Shown here: positions 812-24,674 of the stretch, piece after piece | How positions within the stretch are numbered: the stretch's first letter is position 1 | Layout of the letters: each line of letters begins with the position of its first letter | NCBI GenBank assembly: GCA_947455515.1 | Contig: CANGOF010000017.1 | Location: forward strand, 1 to 34,370 | DNA: 34,370 nucleotides | From: Flavobacteriia bacterium | GTDB lineage: Bacteria > Bacteroidota > Bacteroidia > Flavobacteriales_D > Crocinitomicaceae | Reading direction: 5' to 3' | The notes under the pieces: model-generated | What the model was told of the DNA's origin: nothing | Seen by the model: the letters and a program-made list of their open reading frames with translations, nothing else | The model's database searches: none | Program-made: the position numbers and the translations under genes

Positions 812-1261
812 TTATTGTGCTACTATCGGTTGTTGTGTAACCGCTCTATACGTAAATGCTTCACAAATTTTTCTTCGTGCAAAACGTGTTTGGATATCAG
901 ATTGACACATTTTCAAATATAAATCACGAGAAACACCAAAATATTCATAACTGTTACCATCGGAAAAATCCAAACGTAAAACTTGTCCTTTATGATTAAA
1001 GTCAACAACCAAAGAATTTGAAATACTTTCAATGTATTTATCCTTGTTCGCAGCAGCAGTTTCTGGTGAAATACTAACTAAAAAATGATATCCTTCAATC
1101 ACTTTCTTACTAACTTCTTCCGCTTCTGCTTTTTTAACTTCATCCTGAAATTTATCCGGATGATATTCCTTGACTAATTTTCTATAAGTCAATTTCATTT
1201 CCGCTAAAGTAGTTGAACGATCTGAATTATATAATTTTCTAAATTCTGTAATGCGCTTCAT
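812..1261 (-). CDS. J-domain protein with C-terminal KTSC domain
   Basis: A 149-residue soluble protein in two parts. Residues ~1-65 are a J domain with the diagnostic HPD tripeptide at 34-36 in YRKLVKEYHPDKF, followed by a helix ending YHFLVS; J domains stimulate the ATPase of DnaK-type Hsp70 chaperones. Residues ~82-140 match a KTSC domain (LRLDFSDGNSYEYFGVSRDLYLKM, then a basic FARRKI segment), a small domain named for its Lys-Thr-Ser-Cys motif; nucleic-acid-related roles have been suggested but are not established. There are no zinc-finger or Gly/Phe regions, so this is a short class III co-chaperone. It starts 41 bp after pepD and abuts the DUF3820 gene. The partner or client is unknown. 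Confidence 0.82.
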   Translation of the reverse strand: MKRITEFRKLYNSDRSTTLAEMKLTYRKLVKEYHPDKFQDEVKKAEAEEVSKKVIEGYHFLVSISPETAAANKDKYIESISNSLVVDFNHKGQVLRLDFSDGNSYEYFGVSRDLYLKMCQSDIQTRFARRKICEAFTYRAVTQQPIVAQ

Positions 1262-6610: not shown

Positions 6611-9600
6611 TTATTTAATAACTTCTAATCTGATCATTTTTGAAGCACCTTCAAATTCAAGAGTTGCAAAATAAACTCCAACTCCGAATGAAGAAATATC
6701 AAAGGAATGATTTATTCCATTTGAAACCACATCCGAACTATAAACTTTATTCCCTAAAATATCTGTAACAATCAATTTATATGCTTCAATAGAAGATTGA
6801 ATCATAAATTCTCCTTTGGATGGATTAGGATAAACTTTTAAATTAATTAATTCAGAATCATCTAATCCTGCTGTTTTAGGATCCACTATTACTTTTACAG
6901 TGTAAGTAGATGTTGTTCCATTCTCTGCCGTTACAACATAATAAACATCCGATGTATAAGATAATTGCGTTGCTCCACTTGATTGTACTATTCCTCCTAT
7001 TGTAACTACAGCTCCAGAAGAAACTCCAAAGACAGAGGTTAATAAATTCAAACTTGTTCCAAATGGAACATGAACGGTTATCACTTTTGTAACATCATCA
7101 ATAATTGAAGTTGCCGAAGGAACTTCTAAGAATTTGAAGAAAGTAATTAACTTATCGCTTTTCTTAGGAATAGTAACCGTAATTACATAGTTTTTAGTAG
7201 AACCATCAGCTGCTGTTACAGTTACAGTTACAGGATTCGAGAAGTTTACTATAGAAACATTAGTTGTTAAAACAGCTCCATTTAATGTTAAAGTAGCACC
7301 CGCAGAAACAACAAAGTGAATTTGTTGTTTCGTAATATCTGAACCTGCTTGACCAATTATAGTAATATTTGTACCAGTGATTGTACCAGTAATATATGGA
7401 CTTAATAAATCAAACGAGGTAATATCTTTTGAACTATTACCAGTACCTCCTGATGGAGTTAAAACAGTTACTACTACTGTATAATCTTTCGTTGTTCCGT
7501 CTTGAGCAACAACAGTATAAAGTATAGAAGATGTAAAGTTATTCGTTGTTGTACCTGAAATCTGTATTACACCTCCTACTCGAACAGTTGAATTTGCAGA
7601 TGTTGTAAAGTTACCTACTAAAGCTGCTACATTCGTACCATAAGGTACCGTTAATCCAATTGTATTACCTGAAATTGTACCTATTGCTGTTGGAGAAGCG
7701 AATCCAAAAGTTAACATATCTTTTGCAGATGATAATAACGGAGTAACAGAAACAGTTACAATGTAAGTCTTAATTGTTTTGCTATCTTGAGAAGTAACGG
7801 TAAGAGTTACAGGAGCTGAATAATCCACTACACTTCCATTAGAGGTTTGTGTAATATTCGAAACTTTAACAATTGCCCCTGTAGATACTGTAAATGTAGA
7901 AACTAAAGACTTAACATTTGTTCCAAAAGGCACAGTCACAGCAACCGCAGACCCCGAAATCACACCAGTAACAGATGGATTTGTAAAACCAAAAGTTAAT
8001 AAATCTGCACCTGTATTTTGAGAACCTGAACTTATATTTACAGTAACTGTATAAGTTTTAGTAGTCAAATCTTCAGCGGTTACAACATATGTTACTGGAT
8101 TTGTAAAGTTAGTTGTATTCGCACCAGTAGTTACAGAAGATTTTGGAGAGGTAGTATAAACTGCTGTTAAATTACCCAACGATGTCCCTGAAGGCAATGT
8201 CAATGTAATAGTATTCCCAGAAATTGTCCCTTGTACTCCATTGATGGAATAAGTTAAGAAATCCTTATCCGTCGATTTTTGTGATGGTTGAATTGTTACT
8301 GTTATTGTATAATTCTTTGTAGAGCCATCTTCTGCCGTTACGGTATATATTTTTGACGTACTAAAATCATTTGCAGTTTGGCCACTAACTTGTGCAACTT
8401 GACCTATACTTACTATTGACTTAGGTGAATTTGTGAAGTTAGCAACTAATGAAGTTAATACAGAAGGATTAGTTCCTGTAGGTAAAGTCAAGGTAATTGT
8501 ATTTCCAGAAGTTGAAACTGTTCCTACTGGATTAGTAAAGTTAAAGCTTAACAAATCATTCGCAGAACTTAAATCACATACATTTGGGTAAACACCTAAT
8601 GAAAATCTTGCATTATCAGGCATGATTGTATCATAAACTGTAGTTGTTGCAGATGTTTTATAAGAACAATAAGCTGTGTTCAAGGTGGAACCTTGTGCTC
8701 CTGCAGTATTAGAATATAGCGCTATTGTATCTTGACTTACTGCTGCTGTTCCCCATTTATTTCTATATTTAACTTGAATACCAGAGTAGAAAGATCCTTT
8801 TACTTTGATATTATCATTACTTAAATCTAAGATATAGTCACCCGTATTACTCATATTAGCCTTTACTGTTTTTACTGCTATTCTTTTTGTAAATAATAAA
8901 GTGGTACCAGGTAATTGTGTAGTAGCATCTGGCAAGTATCCGATAAACAACATTGTGTTTGTATCATTACCAGCTACAACTTTTCCAAATGAATATTTCA
9001 CACTTGATAATTTATATGTTTTTGAATCATTTTTTAATGTTTCAAACTTTTCATATACTCCTTGGAAATAATAGGAACCAGTTCCTGTAAAATATCCATT
9101 ACCAGAGTATCCTGTTGAATCAGTTGCATACAATGCGGATGTAGTATTATTTCCATCTTTCCAGTTATTCAAATCCTTACATCCTAAAACTGGAGCTGAA
9201 GCAACTGTTACTTTTACTGTATAAGACTTTGTAGTTGTTCCGTCTTCTGCAGTAATAACATATACTAAATCAGATGAAAAAGTATTAGATGTTACTCCAC
9301 TTTGCTGTAATACAGCGCTTACTTTAGCAGACGCTCCTGTCGATAATACAAAAGTTGCAGTTTGTGTTAATGAAGATCCACTTGGTAAAGTCAAAGTAAT
9401 TACGTTTCCAGATATTGTTCCTTGCGTTACACCCATAGAGAATCCCGTAATATCGCATGCTGTACTTTTTGTAACTTGAGAAACATTTACAGTAACTGTA
9501 TAAGTTTTAGTAGTCAAATCTTCAGCGGTTACAACATATGTTACTGGATTTGTAAAGTTAGTTGTATTCGCACCAGTAGTTATAGAAGATTTTGGGGAGG

Positions 9601-11494
9601 TAGTATACACTGCAGTTAAATTACCTAGCGATGTCCCTGAAGGCAATGTCAATGTAATAGTATTCCCAGAAATTATCCCTTGTACTCCATTGATGGAATA
9701 AGTTAAGAAGTCTTTATCTGTCGATTTTTGTGACGGGGTCTCAATTACCTGAATAGTATAGGTCTTAGAAGTTTTCCCATCTTCAGAAGACACAATACAA
9801 GTTACTATGTTTGTAAAATCAAAAACATTTCCTGAATTTAACGAATTATTGTTCAACTTGATCGTCGCTCCAGGTGAAACAGTAAACAAAGTTGTCAAAC
9901 TCGTTTTTAATGTCCCATTAGGTACAGTTACAATTATTGTATTGTTTACGGAACTAATATTTCCTTGAATTAACGATGGAGCGTTCACCCCAAATGTTAA
10001 AACTTCTGCTTTATTTCCTTTAGCTGTAATAGAAACGTCATCAATTCTCAAATTGATTGTAGAATCTACTGCAGTATTCCTAGCTCTAAAACCTATGTAA
10101 TATACACCTTCAGAACTTACATTGAACGTGTTTGTATTAAGATAATAATTTCCATCAGGCTTTAATGTTTTTTCTGATCCAATTATAGTTGTCATAGAAC
10201 TAGCCACTGGAGACGCTCCAATACTTGTTTGAATTTTACCCGCATTTTTGCCAGATGATAATGCCCCAACCCTATTGTAAAATGATAAAGTATAGGTATA
10301 GTCTGGAGACAAATTTAAACATCTGGAATATAACCAATCCTCCGAAACTCTACTTACATTGTTTTCGAAAATCCTAAAACAATTAGCACTTGAAGAACTA
10401 TTTAATAATGTATTACCAACAGATGCTATTCCAAACTTAATACCATTTGGATCTATTGATTCAGAGGTAAATCCTCCTGTTTTATCAATTGGATTTTCAA
10501 AATCTTCGAAAAATGACTTTTGATTTGTTACTTGTGTAGGCGAATAATTTATTATTGTAGTTGTTGCTGTATCATTAGATGTATTTCCATCTCCATTCAA
10601 CTTTGAATAGACTTTAACTGTATATGTTTGAACTACGGATAAATCTATAGGTGTTGTAAAAAAATAAATTGCCGTATCTCCTTGTGCAAAAGTTGATTTT
10701 GCTTGTAATTTTGTTGACAACCAATTAGCACTTTCAACTACCTCACTTCCATTGTTTACCTTATATGCTACAGATGTTCCATTTGGAACTACATCTGTAC
10801 CATTATTTATTACTGCAAAACCAACTTTATCATTTGTCAAACCACAAGCTGAAGATTTTGAATAAAAGAAAGCATTTAATGCTGACAATTCTTTTGCTAC
10901 TATTTCTTCAACAATAACATCATCTATAAACCAAGCAAAATCATAATCACCAACTTTACCGGCATATACAAATCGTATCCAAACTTGAGGTTTATTTGCT
11001 GCTACAGATGAAATATCTACTGAATAAACGCTGGAGTTCGGTGTCCCCCCACCCATTGTAATTGTCGAATTACATATAAAAGGTGTCCAATTCGTTTGAT
11101 CAGTACTCACCTCAATAGACACAACATCTTGATATTTAGTATAAAACTGATTGAAACTTACTTTTACTTTTGATTTACCATTTGTACTAAAAGAATTTTT
11201 AGTTGTTATATAAGCCGTTCTATTACCTGCTCCTGTATTAGTACCGTCAACTACAGCATAATTACCAAGTGATTTCGAATTAAAAGCAGTAAAAGAACCT
11301 AACCAACTACTTAAAGTTTTGTTAAATGTCGTAGGTTTAGTAGAGGTAATTACCCAATTCAAAGAACCAGCGGCACTATTGTTTGTAATATTCCAATCAG
11401 AAGTATTACTAAAATCAGACGACCAGATGGTTGTCTGTCCAAAACTTAGGCAAGAAATCAAAAAACCCGCCAACAACAATACAATTTTCTTCAT
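6611..11494 (-). CDS. Giant secreted repeat protein with T9SS C-terminal sorting domain
   Basis: A 1627-residue exported protein. Residues 1-20 are a signal peptide ending SFGQ. An N-terminal jelly-roll (about 21-200: WSSDFSNTSDW to FAWFIDDVIVEE) resembles choice-of-anchor/MAM-like domains. After a CARDB-like stretch a second jelly-roll follows (about 330-490, FFEDFENP to LRIDDVSITAKG). Nine ~85-95-residue Ig-like repeats of DUF5018 type then occur, three at ~491-768 and six at ~973-1540; each carries a form of ISGNTITLTLP, NFTNPVTYVVTAEDG and a closing KTYTVTVTV. A unique ~205-residue insert (~768-973) separates the two blocks. The end (~1543-1627: LKVYPNPSKGEF, then FDISSFGVGVYFATL and a basic last strand) is a type A T9SS sorting domain. 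It is probably a surface adhesin or glycan-binding protein; no enzyme domain is seen. It has its own promoter and terminator. Confidence 0.93.
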   Translation of the reverse strand: MKKIVLLLAGFLISCLSFGQTTIWSSDFSNTSDWNITNNSAAGSLNWVITSTKPTTFNKTLSSWLGSFTAFNSKSLGNYAVVDGTNTGAGNRTAYITTKNSFSTNGKSKVKVSFNQFYTKYQDVVSIEVSTDQTNWTPFICNSTITMGGGTPNSSVYSVDISSVAANKPQVWIRFVYAGKVGDYDFAWFIDDVIVEEIVAKELSALNAFFYSKSSACGLTNDKVGFAVINNGTDVVPNGTSVAYKVNNGSEVVESANWLSTKLQAKSTFAQGDTAIYFFTTPIDLSVVQTYTVKVYSKLNGDGNTSNDTATTTIINYSPTQVTNQKSFFEDFENPIDKTGGFTSESIDPNGIKFGIASVGNTLLNSSSSANCFRIFENNVSRVSEDWLYSRCLNLSPDYTYTLSFYNRVGALSSGKNAGKIQTSIGASPVASSMTTIIGSEKTLKPDGNYYLNTNTFNVSSEGVYYIGFRARNTAVDSTINLRIDDVSITAKGNKAEVLTFGVNAPSLIQGNISSVNNTIIVTVPNGTLKTSLTTLFTVSPGATIKLNNNSLNSGNVFDFTNIVTCIVSSEDGKTSKTYTIQVIETPSQKSTDKDFLTYSINGVQGIISGNTITLTLPSGTSLGNLTAVYTTSPKSSITTGANTTNFTNPVTYVVTAEDLTTKTYTVTVNVSQVTKSTACDITGFSMGVTQGTISGNVITLTLPSGSSLTQTATFVLSTGASAKVSAVLQQSGVTSNTFSSDLVYVITAEDGTTTKSYTVKVTVASAPVLGCKDLNNWKDGNNTTSALYATDSTGYSGNGYFTGTGSYYFQGVYEKFETLKNDSKTYKLSSVKYSFGKVVAGNDTNTMLFIGYLPDATTQLPGTTLLFTKRIAVKTVKANMSNTGDYILDLSNDNIKVKGSFYSGIQVKYRNKWGTAAVSQDTIALYSNTAGAQGSTLNTAYCSYKTSATTTVYDTIMPDNARFSLGVYPNVCDLSSANDLLSFNFTNPVGTVSTSGNTITLTLPTGTNPSVLTSLVANFTNSPKSIVSIGQVAQVSGQTANDFSTSKIYTVTAEDGSTKNYTITVTIQPSQKSTDKDFLTYSINGVQGTISGNTITLTLPSGTSLGNLTAVYTTSPKSSVTTGANTTNFTNPVTYVVTAEDLTTKTYTVTVNISSGSQNTGADLLTFGFTNPSVTGVISGSAVAVTVPFGTNVKSLVSTFTVSTGAIVKVSNITQTSNGSVVDYSAPVTLTVTSQDSKTIKTYIVTVSVTPLLSSAKDMLTFGFASPTAIGTISGNTIGLTVPYGTNVAALVGNFTTSANSTVRVGGVIQISGTTTNNFTSSILYTVVAQDGTTKDYTVVVTVLTPSGGTGNSSKDITSFDLLSPYITGTITGTNITIIGQAGSDITKQQIHFVVSAGATLTLNGAVLTTNVSIVNFSNPVTVTVTAADGSTKNYVITVTIPKKSDKLITFFKFLEVPSATSIIDDVTKVITVHVPFGTSLNLLTSVFGVSSGAVVTIGGIVQSSGATQLSYTSDVYYVVTAENGTTSTYTVKVIVDPKTAGLDDSELINLKVYPNPSKGEFMIQSSIEAYKLIVTDILGNKVYSSDVVSNGINHSFDISSFGVGVYFATLEFEGASKMIRLEVIK
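8036..8287 (-). repeat. Near-identical 252-bp direct repeat, copy encoding repeat 5
   Basis: This copy matches 9485-9736 at all but about 11 positions by eye, in the same orientation and reading frame. It encodes the KSTDKDFLTYSING-type DUF5018 unit. The other seven units of the protein are far more divergent, so this pair is recent or kept alike by gene conversion. Confidence 0.93.
9485..9736 (-). repeat. Near-identical 252-bp direct repeat, copy encoding repeat 2
   Basis: Partner of 8036-8287. The offset between copies is 1449 bp, exactly 483 codons, so recombination between them would delete or duplicate repeats 2-4 plus the unique insert without breaking the frame. Confidence 0.93.
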
Positions 11495-17555: not shown

Positions 17556-20138
17556 ATGAGAAAAATGAAACTTTTTGTACTTGTAACAGTGCTTTGCACA
17601 AGTTTGTTTTCAAGAGCAGACGAAGGTATGTGGCTTCCATTTATGCTTGGAAGAAACTTTGAAGATATGAAAAAACATGGTCTTAAATTGACACAAGAAC
17701 AAATTTATTCGATTAACCATTCATCTTTAAAAGACGCTGTTATTTCTTTTGGAGGATTTTGTACAGGAGAAGTTATTTCTAAAAAAGGTTTGGTATTAAC
17801 AAATCACCACTGTGGTTACGATGCTATTGCTGACGCTTCTACACCAGAAAAAAATTATTTAGACAAAGGTTTTTGGGCTAAAAATAATGCAGAAGAAATT
17901 CAAGTTCCAGGTTTAACCGCTACATTTATAGTTCGCATTGAAGACGTTACAAGCTTAATTCAAAAGGAATTAAATGAGTCTATGACACCTGAACAACGCA
18001 CAGCAAAAATTGCAGAAATCGCTAAAGTATTAGAAAAAGAAGCGGTTGAAGGCACACATTACGAAGCATTTGTAAGAGATTTTTATGCTGGTAACGAATT
18101 CTACCTTTTTGTAAAAGAAACATTTAATGACGTTAGATTAGTAGGTACTCCTCCTCAATCTTCTGGTAAATTTGGTGGAGATACTGACAACTGGATGTGG
18201 CCAAGACATACTGCAGATTTTTCTATGTTTAGAATTTATGCAGGAGCGGATAACAAACCAGCCGGTTTCAGCGCAAACAACGTTCCATATACACCAAAAC
18301 ATAGTCTACCGATTTCACTTGACGGAATTAAAAAGAATGATTACGCGATGATCATGGGGTATCCTGGACGCACAAATCGCTTTTTAACCTCTTATGGCGT
18401 AGAACAAGCTATCAAATTAGAACAACCAAAAATCGTTGATATCCGTGCTAAAAAACTTCAAATCATGAAGAAATATATGGATCAAAATGTAAAAGTTAGA
18501 TTAAATTACTCATCAAAATATGCACAAGTTGCTAATTACTGGAAGTATTTTATTGGACAAACTGCACAATTGAAAAACAATAAGGTAGCAGATAAAAAAC
18601 GTGAAATAGAAAATAACTACAACGCCTTTACTAAAGGTGAAGCAGAATATGCAAATGTATTAGCAGATATAGAAGACGCATATAGAGCTACAAATTCGGT
18701 GATTTACACTAAAGTTTACTTTGGTGAATTTTTAAATCAAGTAGACATTAATTCACATGTTTTAATTTATAAAAACATAGCTAATTTAGAGGCTCTTGGA
18801 AAAAAAGATCAATCAGCTCAATTACAAAAAATGGCTAAAGACCGTTGGAAAGAATTCTTTAAAAATAACAATCTTGATATTGAATTAGAAACGCTTTCTG
18901 AGGTTTATAAAATGTATTTAAAAGACATTCCAAATGCTCAAAAAGGCGCATTTGCTAAAATGTTAAACGAAAAAGGGATTAAAAAAATCGATAAATATTT
19001 AGCTAAAATTCAAAAAAAATCCATCTTCACCAATAAAGAGAGATTTATGGAGTTTTCGAAAGAATTCTCTTTAAGTAAATTATTAAAAGACCCATTATTC
19101 ATTTTAGTATCTGATATTGATGATGCATACCAAGCAACAATGGGTAAAAAGGCTATTAAAGAAGCGCAAATAAAATTACAACGTGCAAATAGATTATTTG
19201 TAAAAGGTGTAAGAGCAATGGATTTAAACAAGATGTATGCTCCAAATGCAAATTCAACTTTAAGAGTAACGTATGGTAATGTTTTACCATACGCTCCAAA
19301 AGATGCTGCTTTTTACGATTATCAAACAACTTTGAATGGTGTAATGGAAAAAGAAGATCCAACATCTCCAGAATTTAATGTAGATCCAATAATGAAAGAA
19401 TTATGGAAAAATAAAGATTATGGAAGATACGCTAACAAAAAAGGAGAACTTACTGTAAACTTTTTAACGAATAATGATATCACAGGAGGTAACTCTGGTT
19501 CTCCATGTATTAATGCAAATGGAGAATTAATTGGTGTAGCATTTGATGGAAACTGGGAAGCTATGTCTGGAGACATCTACTTTGAACCTAACATTCAACG
19601 TACTATTGTATGTGATATACGTTACGTTCTATGGATTATTGACAAATGTTATGGAGCTCAAAACTTAATCGAGGAAATGGATATTAAAAAATCCAACTCA
19701 AATGAAGTTGAACTTACAGAGGGTTCTGAAGGATCAACAGATGCGTCAAATGCGTCAAATAACAACACCAAAAACTTAAACTCTTTACCTTGTCCTAAAA
19801 CAGCAGCAGAATTAGGTGTGAAAGATGTTCAATTTGAAGTAGGAAGTTCATCTTTAAAAAATTCTCACGCTAACTTGGATAAAGTAGTAGAAATATTAAA
19901 AGCAAACCCAAATTTCACGATTGAAATTGAAGGTCATGCTGATCAAACTGGTGATGTTTGTAAAAACTTAATTTTATCTGAAAAAAGAGCTAAAGCTGTA
20001 GAGAAATATTTATTAGCAAAAGGTGTTAAATTAGATCGTATCAAAGTGAAAGGTTTTGGATCTGCTCAACCTAAAACTGAAAATAATACAAAAGATGGAC
20101 GAGCTCATAATCGTAGAGTATCTTTTATGTTTAAATAA
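17556..20138 (+). CDS. S46 dipeptidyl-peptidase (DPP7-type) fused to a C-terminal OmpA domain
   Basis: An 860-residue exported protease. A signal peptide covers about residues 1-21 (to SRA). The S46 domain (~22-715) has the triad His85 (TNHHCGY), Asp221 (WPRHTADF) and Ser647 (GGNSGSP). S46 enzymes remove dipeptides from peptide N-termini in the periplasm; the residue 18 positions after the serine is Gly (AFDGNW), as in DPP7, where DPP11 has Arg, predicting a hydrophobic rather than acidic P1 preference. After a Ser/Asn-rich linker with a 9-bp tandem duplication (19741-19758), residues ~755-860 form an OmpA-like peptidoglycan-binding domain (GHADQTG, LSEKRAKAVEKYL, GFGSAQP, NRRVSF). Typical S46 proteins are about 710-720 residues and lack this part. 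A TTG at 17550 is in frame, but the ATG at 17556 fits the signal peptide better. A strong terminator follows. Confidence 0.93.
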   Translation: MRKMKLFVLVTVLCTSLFSRADEGMWLPFMLGRNFEDMKKHGLKLTQEQIYSINHSSLKDAVISFGGFCTGEVISKKGLVLTNHHCGYDAIADASTPEKNYLDKGFWAKNNAEEIQVPGLTATFIVRIEDVTSLIQKELNESMTPEQRTAKIAEIAKVLEKEAVEGTHYEAFVRDFYAGNEFYLFVKETFNDVRLVGTPPQSSGKFGGDTDNWMWPRHTADFSMFRIYAGADNKPAGFSANNVPYTPKHSLPISLDGIKKNDYAMIMGYPGRTNRFLTSYGVEQAIKLEQPKIVDIRAKKLQIMKKYMDQNVKVRLNYSSKYAQVANYWKYFIGQTAQLKNNKVADKKREIENNYNAFTKGEAEYANVLADIEDAYRATNSVIYTKVYFGEFLNQVDINSHVLIYKNIANLEALGKKDQSAQLQKMAKDRWKEFFKNNNLDIELETLSEVYKMYLKDIPNAQKGAFAKMLNEKGIKKIDKYLAKIQKKSIFTNKERFMEFSKEFSLSKLLKDPLFILVSDIDDAYQATMGKKAIKEAQIKLQRANRLFVKGVRAMDLNKMYAPNANSTLRVTYGNVLPYAPKDAAFYDYQTTLNGVMEKEDPTSPEFNVDPIMKELWKNKDYGRYANKKGELTVNFLTNNDITGGNSGSPCINANGELIGVAFDGNWEAMSGDIYFEPNIQRTIVCDIRYVLWIIDKCYGAQNLIEEMDIKKSNSNEVELTEGSEGSTDASNASNNNTKNLNSLPCPKTAAELGVKDVQFEVGSSSLKNSHANLDKVVEILKANPNFTIEIEGHADQTGDVCKNLILSEKRAKAVEKYLLAKGVKLDRIKVKGFGSAQPKTENNTKDGRAHNRRVSFMFK

Positions 20139-20158
20139 TATTTATATTAAATTATGTG

Positions 20159-20196
20159 CAGGGCTATTTCTAAAAGAAATAGCCCTGTTTTTTTTT
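20159..20196 (+). terminator. Strong intrinsic terminator of the S46-OmpA gene
   Basis: A perfect 12-bp stem CAGGGCTATTTC (20159-20170) / GAAATAGCCCTG (20176-20187) with a TAAAA loop is followed by nine T residues. It starts 21 bp past the stop codon. Confidence 0.95.
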
Positions 20197-23390: not shown

Positions 23391-24674
23391 ATGAGTCACG
23401 CTTTAGGAAATCATATTCTTGTTGAATTTATGGGTTGCGACCCACATATAATGAACGATGTTGCAAATATCGAACGTGATATGGTTGGCGCTGCTCAAAA
23501 AGCAGGAGCTACTGTTATAAATTCTACTTTTCACCATTTTTCTCCTTATGGAGTTTCAGGTGTTGTTGTTATTCAAGAAAGCCACCTTGCTATTCATACT
23601 TGGCCAGAATATGGTTATGCAGCAGTTGATTTATTTACCTGTGGTGAAATGGATGCTTGGATTTCTTTTGATTTCTTAAAAGAATGTTTTGGTGCAAAAA
23701 ACTATTCTGCTCTTGAAATGAAAAGAGGTTCTGTTAACCTATTAACAAGAAATGACTTTGATATAACTTCAATGCGTGAAAAAGCATCTGAAAGATCAAA
23801 CCCTGAAATGTATACCAGAAATGTTTGGTTTACAGATAAAGACGAAAGTCAAGCACTTTCTTTACGATTTACAGGTGAGGTGTTTTATGATGTTCAGTCT
23901 CCTTTTCAAAGAGTTAGAATTATTGAATCCTACAAATATGGTATGATGCTTGCATTAGACGATATGGTAATGACAACTATCAAAGATGAATTTCACTATC
24001 ATGAAATGATTTCTCACCCAGCAATGTTTACGCATGGAAATGTTAAAAACGTACTTGTTATCGGTGGTGGTGATGGTGGTACTGTTCGTGAAATTTTACG
24101 TCACCCTGGTGTTGAAAAAGTAACAATGGTTGAGATTGACGGGGAAGTTATAAAAGCTTGTAAAGAATTTTTACCTACAATCGCTGCCGCTTTTGACAAT
24201 CCTAAATTAGATCTTAAAGTAGACGATGGTATCGCATTTATTAAAGAAGCCAAAGCTAACTCTTATGACTTAATTATTGTTGATGGTTCTGATCCAGTAG
24301 GTCCTGCTGAAGGCTTGTTCTCAGTTTCTTTCTATACAAATTGTTATAATGCACTTAAAGAAGGTGGAATATTAGTTGCGCAAGGAGAATCTCCTAAGTT
24401 CAATGAAAAAGCATTTTCTGAATTAAATCATACGTTGCAAGATATTTTCGGTGAGAAAAATGCTCCTGTTTCCTTATTTTATGTTCCTACCTACCCTACT
24501 GGTATGTGGAGTTTCCAATACGGTTTAAAAGGTTCTATCCACCCTAAAACGGTTAATAAAGACGAGGAAATCGAAAATTTTGTTAGCACAGAAGGTTTAC
24601 GTTATTACAATTCAGATATTCATACAGGAAGTTTTGCAACTCCAAATTTTGTAAAAACATTATTAAAAAAATAA
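23391..24674 (+). CDS. Fused S-adenosylmethionine decarboxylase - spermidine synthase
   Basis: A 427-residue bifunctional polyamine enzyme. Residues ~1-118 are a bacterial AdoMet decarboxylase: the self-cleavage site is Glu63-Ser64 ([12 protein letters not shown]), with Ser64 becoming the pyruvoyl cofactor, and His69 and Cys84 match the processing and catalytic residues of the Thermotoga enzyme with a shift of one. Residues ~135-427 are a spermidine synthase: [16 protein letters not shown] binds decarboxylated AdoMet, TMVEIDGEV gives the acidic ligand, and [12 protein letters not shown] carries the catalytic Asp. Together they turn AdoMet plus putrescine into spermidine (or a related triamine), passing the unstable donor between domains. 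Such fusions are known in some bacteria. The stop overlaps the next ATG by one base. Confidence 0.94.

Follow-up and report, generated by a model that had tools for sequence, protein, structure and literature searches.

A gene in the genome of a member of the Crocinitomicaceae (Flavobacteriia) codes, in one open frame, for a complete S46 dipeptidyl-peptidase that continues through a linker into a complete OmpA_C-like domain. It lies on the forward strand of the window, by which we mean the whole stretch of 34,370 nucleotides that was analysed. The joining of these two known domains is real, new and limited to one clade. We think it likely that the product is a DPP7-type enzyme, that Sec exports it, and that its C-terminal domain, on a flexible tether, attaches it non-covalently to peptidoglycan and so retains it. 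The features on which this reading draws are listed below, with positions numbered along the window.

17556..20138, +: DPP7-OmpA fusion gene, 860 aa; ATG at 17556, stop ending at 20138, frame open throughout
17556..17618, +: predicted Sec signal peptide, residues 1-21 (...FSRA^DEGMW), from the sequence
17619..19685, +: S46 peptidase domain, residues 22-710 (PF10459; Foldseek)
17808..17810, +: catalytic His85, near-invariant column of a 45-sequence alignment
18216..18218, +: catalytic Asp221, near-invariant column of the same alignment
19494..19496, +: catalytic Ser647 (= PgDPP11 Ser655), invariant column of the same alignment
19548..19550, +: Gly665 (= PgDPP11 Arg673), S1 determinant and DPP7 marker, from the alignment
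19686..19817, +: linker, residues 711-754, Ser/Asn/Glu-rich, mostly disordered and fast-evolving (pLDDT and divergence)
19818..20135, +: OmpA_C-like domain, residues 755-860 (PF00691; structural matches)
19941..19988, +: predicted DAP-binding triad Asp796, Asn804 and Arg811 in [TA]D(x)7NxxLSxxRA (motif comparison)
20158..20188, +: terminator-like hairpin, 14 pairs followed by a T run, between the fusion gene and the HlyD/FtsX/ABC genes

Domain architecture and S46 subtype

Pfam places Peptidase_S46 (PF10459) at residues 21-709 (profile positions 1-697 of 698, E = 4.8e-224, 746 bits) and OmpA (PF00691) at residues 760-853 (profile positions 2-98 of 98, E = 7.9e-23, 81 bits against a cut-off of 27.2), and since both profiles are matched nearly from end to end, both domains are complete. 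This bears out the original prediction, according to which a full S46 domain, a linker and a complete OmpA-like domain follow one another in an uninterrupted frame. The motifs GHADQTG and NRRV that it had placed in the OmpA-like domain are found at residues 793-799 and 852-855, and its proposed triad, His85/Asp221/Ser647, falls in near-invariant or invariant columns among the 45 aligned sequences. The Cys of the signal peptide has Leu before it and a lipobox is absent on reading the sequence, so that the signal is not of the lipoprotein type. The A^DEGMW junction is identical in PgDPP11, giving the same mature start, and the N-terminus observed for P. endodontalis DPP11 is Asp22 (PMC8048996).

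An AlphaFold model built on the 45-sequence alignment (mean pLDDT 87.6) has confident S46 and OmpA domains with a disordered linker between them. In the linker pLDDT is 25-60 over about residues 711-745, below 50 for 716-744 and below 30 in the core; in the OmpA domain it is mostly 78-93, with two weaker ten-residue blocks (62-69) near 831-850. The best Foldseek match of the S46 part is FpDPP11 (5jxf, target TM 0.94), while the tail matches domains of OprF, PorE (6top), CgOmpA and AbOmpA, including complexes with DAP or stem peptide such as AbOmpA with DAP (3td4/3td5).

The Asn, Trp, Asp and Asn residues with which S46 enzymes recognise the substrate N-terminus (PMC8041751) are conserved in the alignment as Asn212, Trp213, Asp664 and Asn327. 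Position 673 of PgDPP11 decides the subtype: Gly there denotes DPP7, and Arg or Ser denotes DPP11 (PMC8041751, PMC8048996). Because Gly665 occupies this position, the fusion enzyme is predicted to be DPP7-type, with hydrophobic P1 specificity, and a DPP11 identity is rejected; the earlier assignment to S46 therefore stands, and the choice between DPP7 and DPP11 that it had left unsettled falls to DPP7-type. The NCBIfam Dpp7 equivalog NF053519 is not reached (675.7 bits against a cut-off of 1200), so we use 'DPP7-type' on the strength of the S1 residue, by which PMC8048996 classifies these enzymes; so high a cut-off suggests that the model is tuned to close orthologues.

Just one further S46 gene was found in the same genome (L002, G000:C26); it has Arg at the 673 position, as in DPP11, and its product has no tail, ending ten residues past the S46 domain. 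The organism thus pairs a tailed DPP7 with an untailed DPP11, and since this Arg-bearing paralogue is without a tail, the tail is, to judge from these genes, specific to DPP7.

Distribution and origin of the fusion

The full fusion is present in 11 of 13 genus genomes, that of the window included, and the ten further copies are 71-91% identical to it. In one of the other two genomes (G007) the junction and tail are on a different contig from the N-terminus, and in the second (G011) the same linker start is followed by the end of the contig; all 12 genomes with a visible gene end therefore have the fusion, the thirteenth running off its contig. The G007 halves (C115/C91; L018, L182) overlap and are 82% and 66% identical to the window, which suggests a mixed bin. 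That the window's own genome is a draft of 167 contigs might raise the suspicion that assembly or annotation has fused two separate genes, but the ten independent full-length copies, with their conserved ROK-S46 synteny, refute this, and we give it virtually no credence.

Beyond the genus we drew on three samples of Bacteroidota, at the level of order (399 genomes), class (395) and phylum (395), about 1,100 different genomes overall. No S46 domain continuing into OmpA was found outside the genus among the matches listed for the order and class samples, which cover the higher scores, nor in the complete match list of the phylum sample. Of 206 S46 open frames whose end is visible, a count in which overlapping loci of one gene figure more than once, 22 include OmpA, and all 22 are from this genus. 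Fourteen candidates with long frames were fetched and rejected, as none has an OmpA tail; what makes them long is upstream frame or a short tail of another kind. The fusion is thus confined to one genus in the sampled Bacteroidota, the clade-limited pattern that had been put forward as a sign of novelty, and the opposite outcome, the same tail on many unrelated S46 proteins, did not occur among those examined. Among the papers searched, none combines S46, dipeptidyl peptidase and OmpA, and the single one that names both 'peptidase S46' and OmpA is a study of codon usage.

In a tree of S46 domains the fusions form one clade (100/100) inside the tail-less DPP7s and next to those of sister genera, which is most simply explained by a single, genus-level origin. 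Those DPP7s of sister genera that were examined stop just after the S46 domain, at ...EM[KN][LI][VI]K or similar. Loss of a stop codon, carrying the frame into a downstream OmpA gene, was rejected as the route, since in none of the sister loci examined is S46 followed by an OmpA gene; just one lies near S46 in these loci (G026), and it is upstream and a weak match. The closest OmpA domain found in the organism's own genome belongs to a probable beta-barrel OmpA (L221, 108.8 bits to the tail profile) and is a possible donor. Other Flavobacteriales have S46 proteins with C-terminal TPR-like tails (about 180 aa in L166, L167 and L168, about 90 aa in L031 and L240), so tails have been joined to S46 enzymes more than once. 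The three longer ones are likewise C-terminal additions to an S46 protein, but they belong to other families of the order and contain no OmpA.

Selection on the tail and its predicted role

Between genus members, dN/dS is about 0.02-0.10 in the S46 segment, 0.05-0.37 in the OmpA segment, which has changed more, and 0.2 to above 1 in the linker, values that are rough in that synonymous sites are near saturation in several genus pairs. Linker identity falls to 15-58%, with a composition rich in Ser/Thr/Asn/Asp/Glu/Lys retained. The S46 and OmpA parts are both clearly constrained by purifying selection, and the pattern fits two domains, each of them functional, that are joined by a free tether. 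Given the Pfam E-values and the purifying selection on the tail, a chance fusion is excluded and the fusion is genuine. Were the tail a recent neutral addition without a role, the nearly free evolution of the linker and the faster change of the OmpA part relative to the S46 part would be expected; this reading is already disfavoured by an OmpA dN/dS well below 1 despite high synonymous divergence, and with the tail retained in every genome where the gene end is visible and its DAP-contact residues invariant, we regard it as very unlikely.

The peptidoglycan-binding motif of OmpA_C domains is TD(x)7NxxLSxxRA (PMC5104382). The contacts in PorE are Asp576/Asn584/Arg591, that is, Asp, Asn (+8) and Arg (+15) (PMC7192894), and the DAP residues of AbOmpA are Asp271/Arg286 as quoted in PMC5974059. 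The Asp/Asn/Arg triad is kept in all 12 fusion tails available, and the position before Asp796 is Ala in most genus members as against the usual Thr. In Tp0624 the OmpA-like domain has lost DAP binding (PMC5104382), and its changes fall at the motif that the fusion tails retain. Alignment could have revealed a loss of the peptidoglycan-binding residues, and it did not; the proposal that the fusion tethers the protease to peptidoglycan is supported as a prediction, the intact site suggesting that the domain binds meso-DAP stem peptides. We also observed that Cys802 (19959-19961), which precedes the DAP-contact Asn by two residues, does not vary among the 12 tails, and that an equivalent Cys is absent from the other OmpA domains of the same genome among the matches listed.

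In the mechanism that we favour, a DPP7-type S46 enzyme would be exported by Sec, and its OmpA_C-like domain would grip meso-DAP stem peptides non-covalently at the end of a flexible tether of 30-45 residues. If the S46 part forms dimers like its relatives, the attachment may be two-handed and tighter. The benefit would be retention, the cell's only DPP7 staying in the periplasm at a fixed station where dipeptides are released, and anchoring would avert its loss by leakage or in outer-membrane vesicles. Since both DPP7 and DPP11 of P. gingivalis have been reported from the vesicle lumen (PMC8048996), vesicle loss would be a reasonable reason for anchoring DPP7. Dipeptides, once released, would reach POT-type importers encoded elsewhere; POT-family genes occur in 11 of the 13 genomes of the genus, and in the window's own they are on another contig (G000:C127).

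Two parts of the original prediction find no support, namely that the enzyme sits beside a peptide importer and that dipeptides are made near the inner membrane. The predicted anchor is peptidoglycan, not a membrane, and a search of the neighbours of the fusion gene found no peptide importer gene. Gene order in the genus is ROK kinase, DPP7-OmpA, a HlyD/FtsX-type permease/ABC ATPase set, speDE and arginase. The set is MacB-like, of exporter type, and because a strong terminator-like hairpin with a T run follows the DPP7 stop, it is probably a separate unit; in the most divergent genus member (L175) it is missing and speDE is next after the fusion. In sister genera with a ROK gene near S46, a GH92 gene lies between the two in both loci examined. 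Among other genes of the window, AdoMet decarboxylase and spermidine synthase are fused in one gene (23391-24674) with an arginase-family gene next, a 1627-aa protein (6611-11494, minus strand) combines DUF5018 repeats with a T9SS C-terminal sorting domain, and a small protein (812-1261, minus strand) combines DnaJ-like and KTSC domains. On contig C20 of the same genome, a PorP/SprF T9SS membrane protein is fused to an OmpA domain (L216:1474-2946).

OmpA-like domains also pair with porins (PMC5104382), and the tail might mainly dock or stabilise another envelope protein, as RmpM does for porins, so that DPP7 would sit next to an outer-membrane importer or porin; the organism's genome has 18 other OmpA-domain matches, several on outer-membrane or T9SS-type proteins. 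Docking alone would not need the full DAP-contact triad that every tail retains, however, and no partner gene is co-located, the hairpin following the gene and the downstream genes not being conserved in L175, so we judge this role unlikely. In a further reading the enzyme finds its substrates in the wall, where it would trim peptides attached to peptidoglycan or proteins associated with the wall, and the tail is a means of substrate targeting. Enzymes acting on the cell wall often bear peptidoglycan-binding modules, and an Amidase_3 gene lies 8.5 kb downstream in the same window. Yet a substrate of S46 enzymes must have a free N-terminus on an L-amino acid, with P1 followed by an ordinary peptide bond, a chemistry to which stem peptides (L-Ala-gamma-D-Glu-DAP) are unsuited. 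With the residues that recognise the N-terminus intact, as well as the S1 Gly of DPP7, and with 60-70% identity to tail-less sisters suggesting unchanged substrates, action on the wall seems highly improbable. The role of the OmpA tail is very likely localisation.

Relation to known enzymes and anchors

Descriptions of DPP7 and DPP11 from Bacteroidota present them as enzymes free in the periplasm that feed dipeptide importers, and known DPP7s end at the S46 domain, at about 700-720 aa. With the DPP7s of S. maltophilia (7dkb) and P. gingivalis the fusion shares the complete S46 domain, the triad, the residues for N-terminus recognition and the Gly at S1; what it adds is a linker and a predicted peptidoglycan-binding domain. 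Its best PDB matches in sequence and fold are DPP11s (PgDPP11, 4xzy; FpDPP11, 5jxf), from which it differs in having Gly at the place of the S1 Arg of PgDPP11 and in its tail, DPP11 being tail-less. The fold and DAP-site residues of the tail are common to OmpA, OprF and Pal domains, which are usually borne on a beta-barrel or lipid anchor and connect the outer membrane to peptidoglycan. In PorE/PG1058 and other multidomain OmpA_C proteins of Bacteroidota, OmpA_C tethers periplasmic modules to peptidoglycan (PMC5053529, PMC7192894). The likeness to PorE lies in a C-terminal OmpA_C tether with the DAP-contact Asp/Asn/Arg; whereas PorE is a lipoprotein scaffold (TPR, beta-propeller and CRD), the cargo here is an exopeptidase, and there is no lipid anchor.

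On balance, we think it more likely than not that this enzyme is immobilised on the wall, as no S46 exopeptidase was known to be before, through a genus-specific, single-origin switch of the sole DPP7 from a soluble to a wall-bound state while DPP11 is still soluble. An enzyme would thereby join the known cargoes of OmpA_C anchors. Setting the tethered DPP7 against the free DPP11 and the tail-less DPP7 of sister genera would provide a clean comparison of enzyme placement, one that bears on peptide nutrition, enzyme retention and vesicle loading. If this reading is true, the genus is an experiment of nature that can show whether peptide capture changes once a nutrient-processing exopeptidase is tethered.
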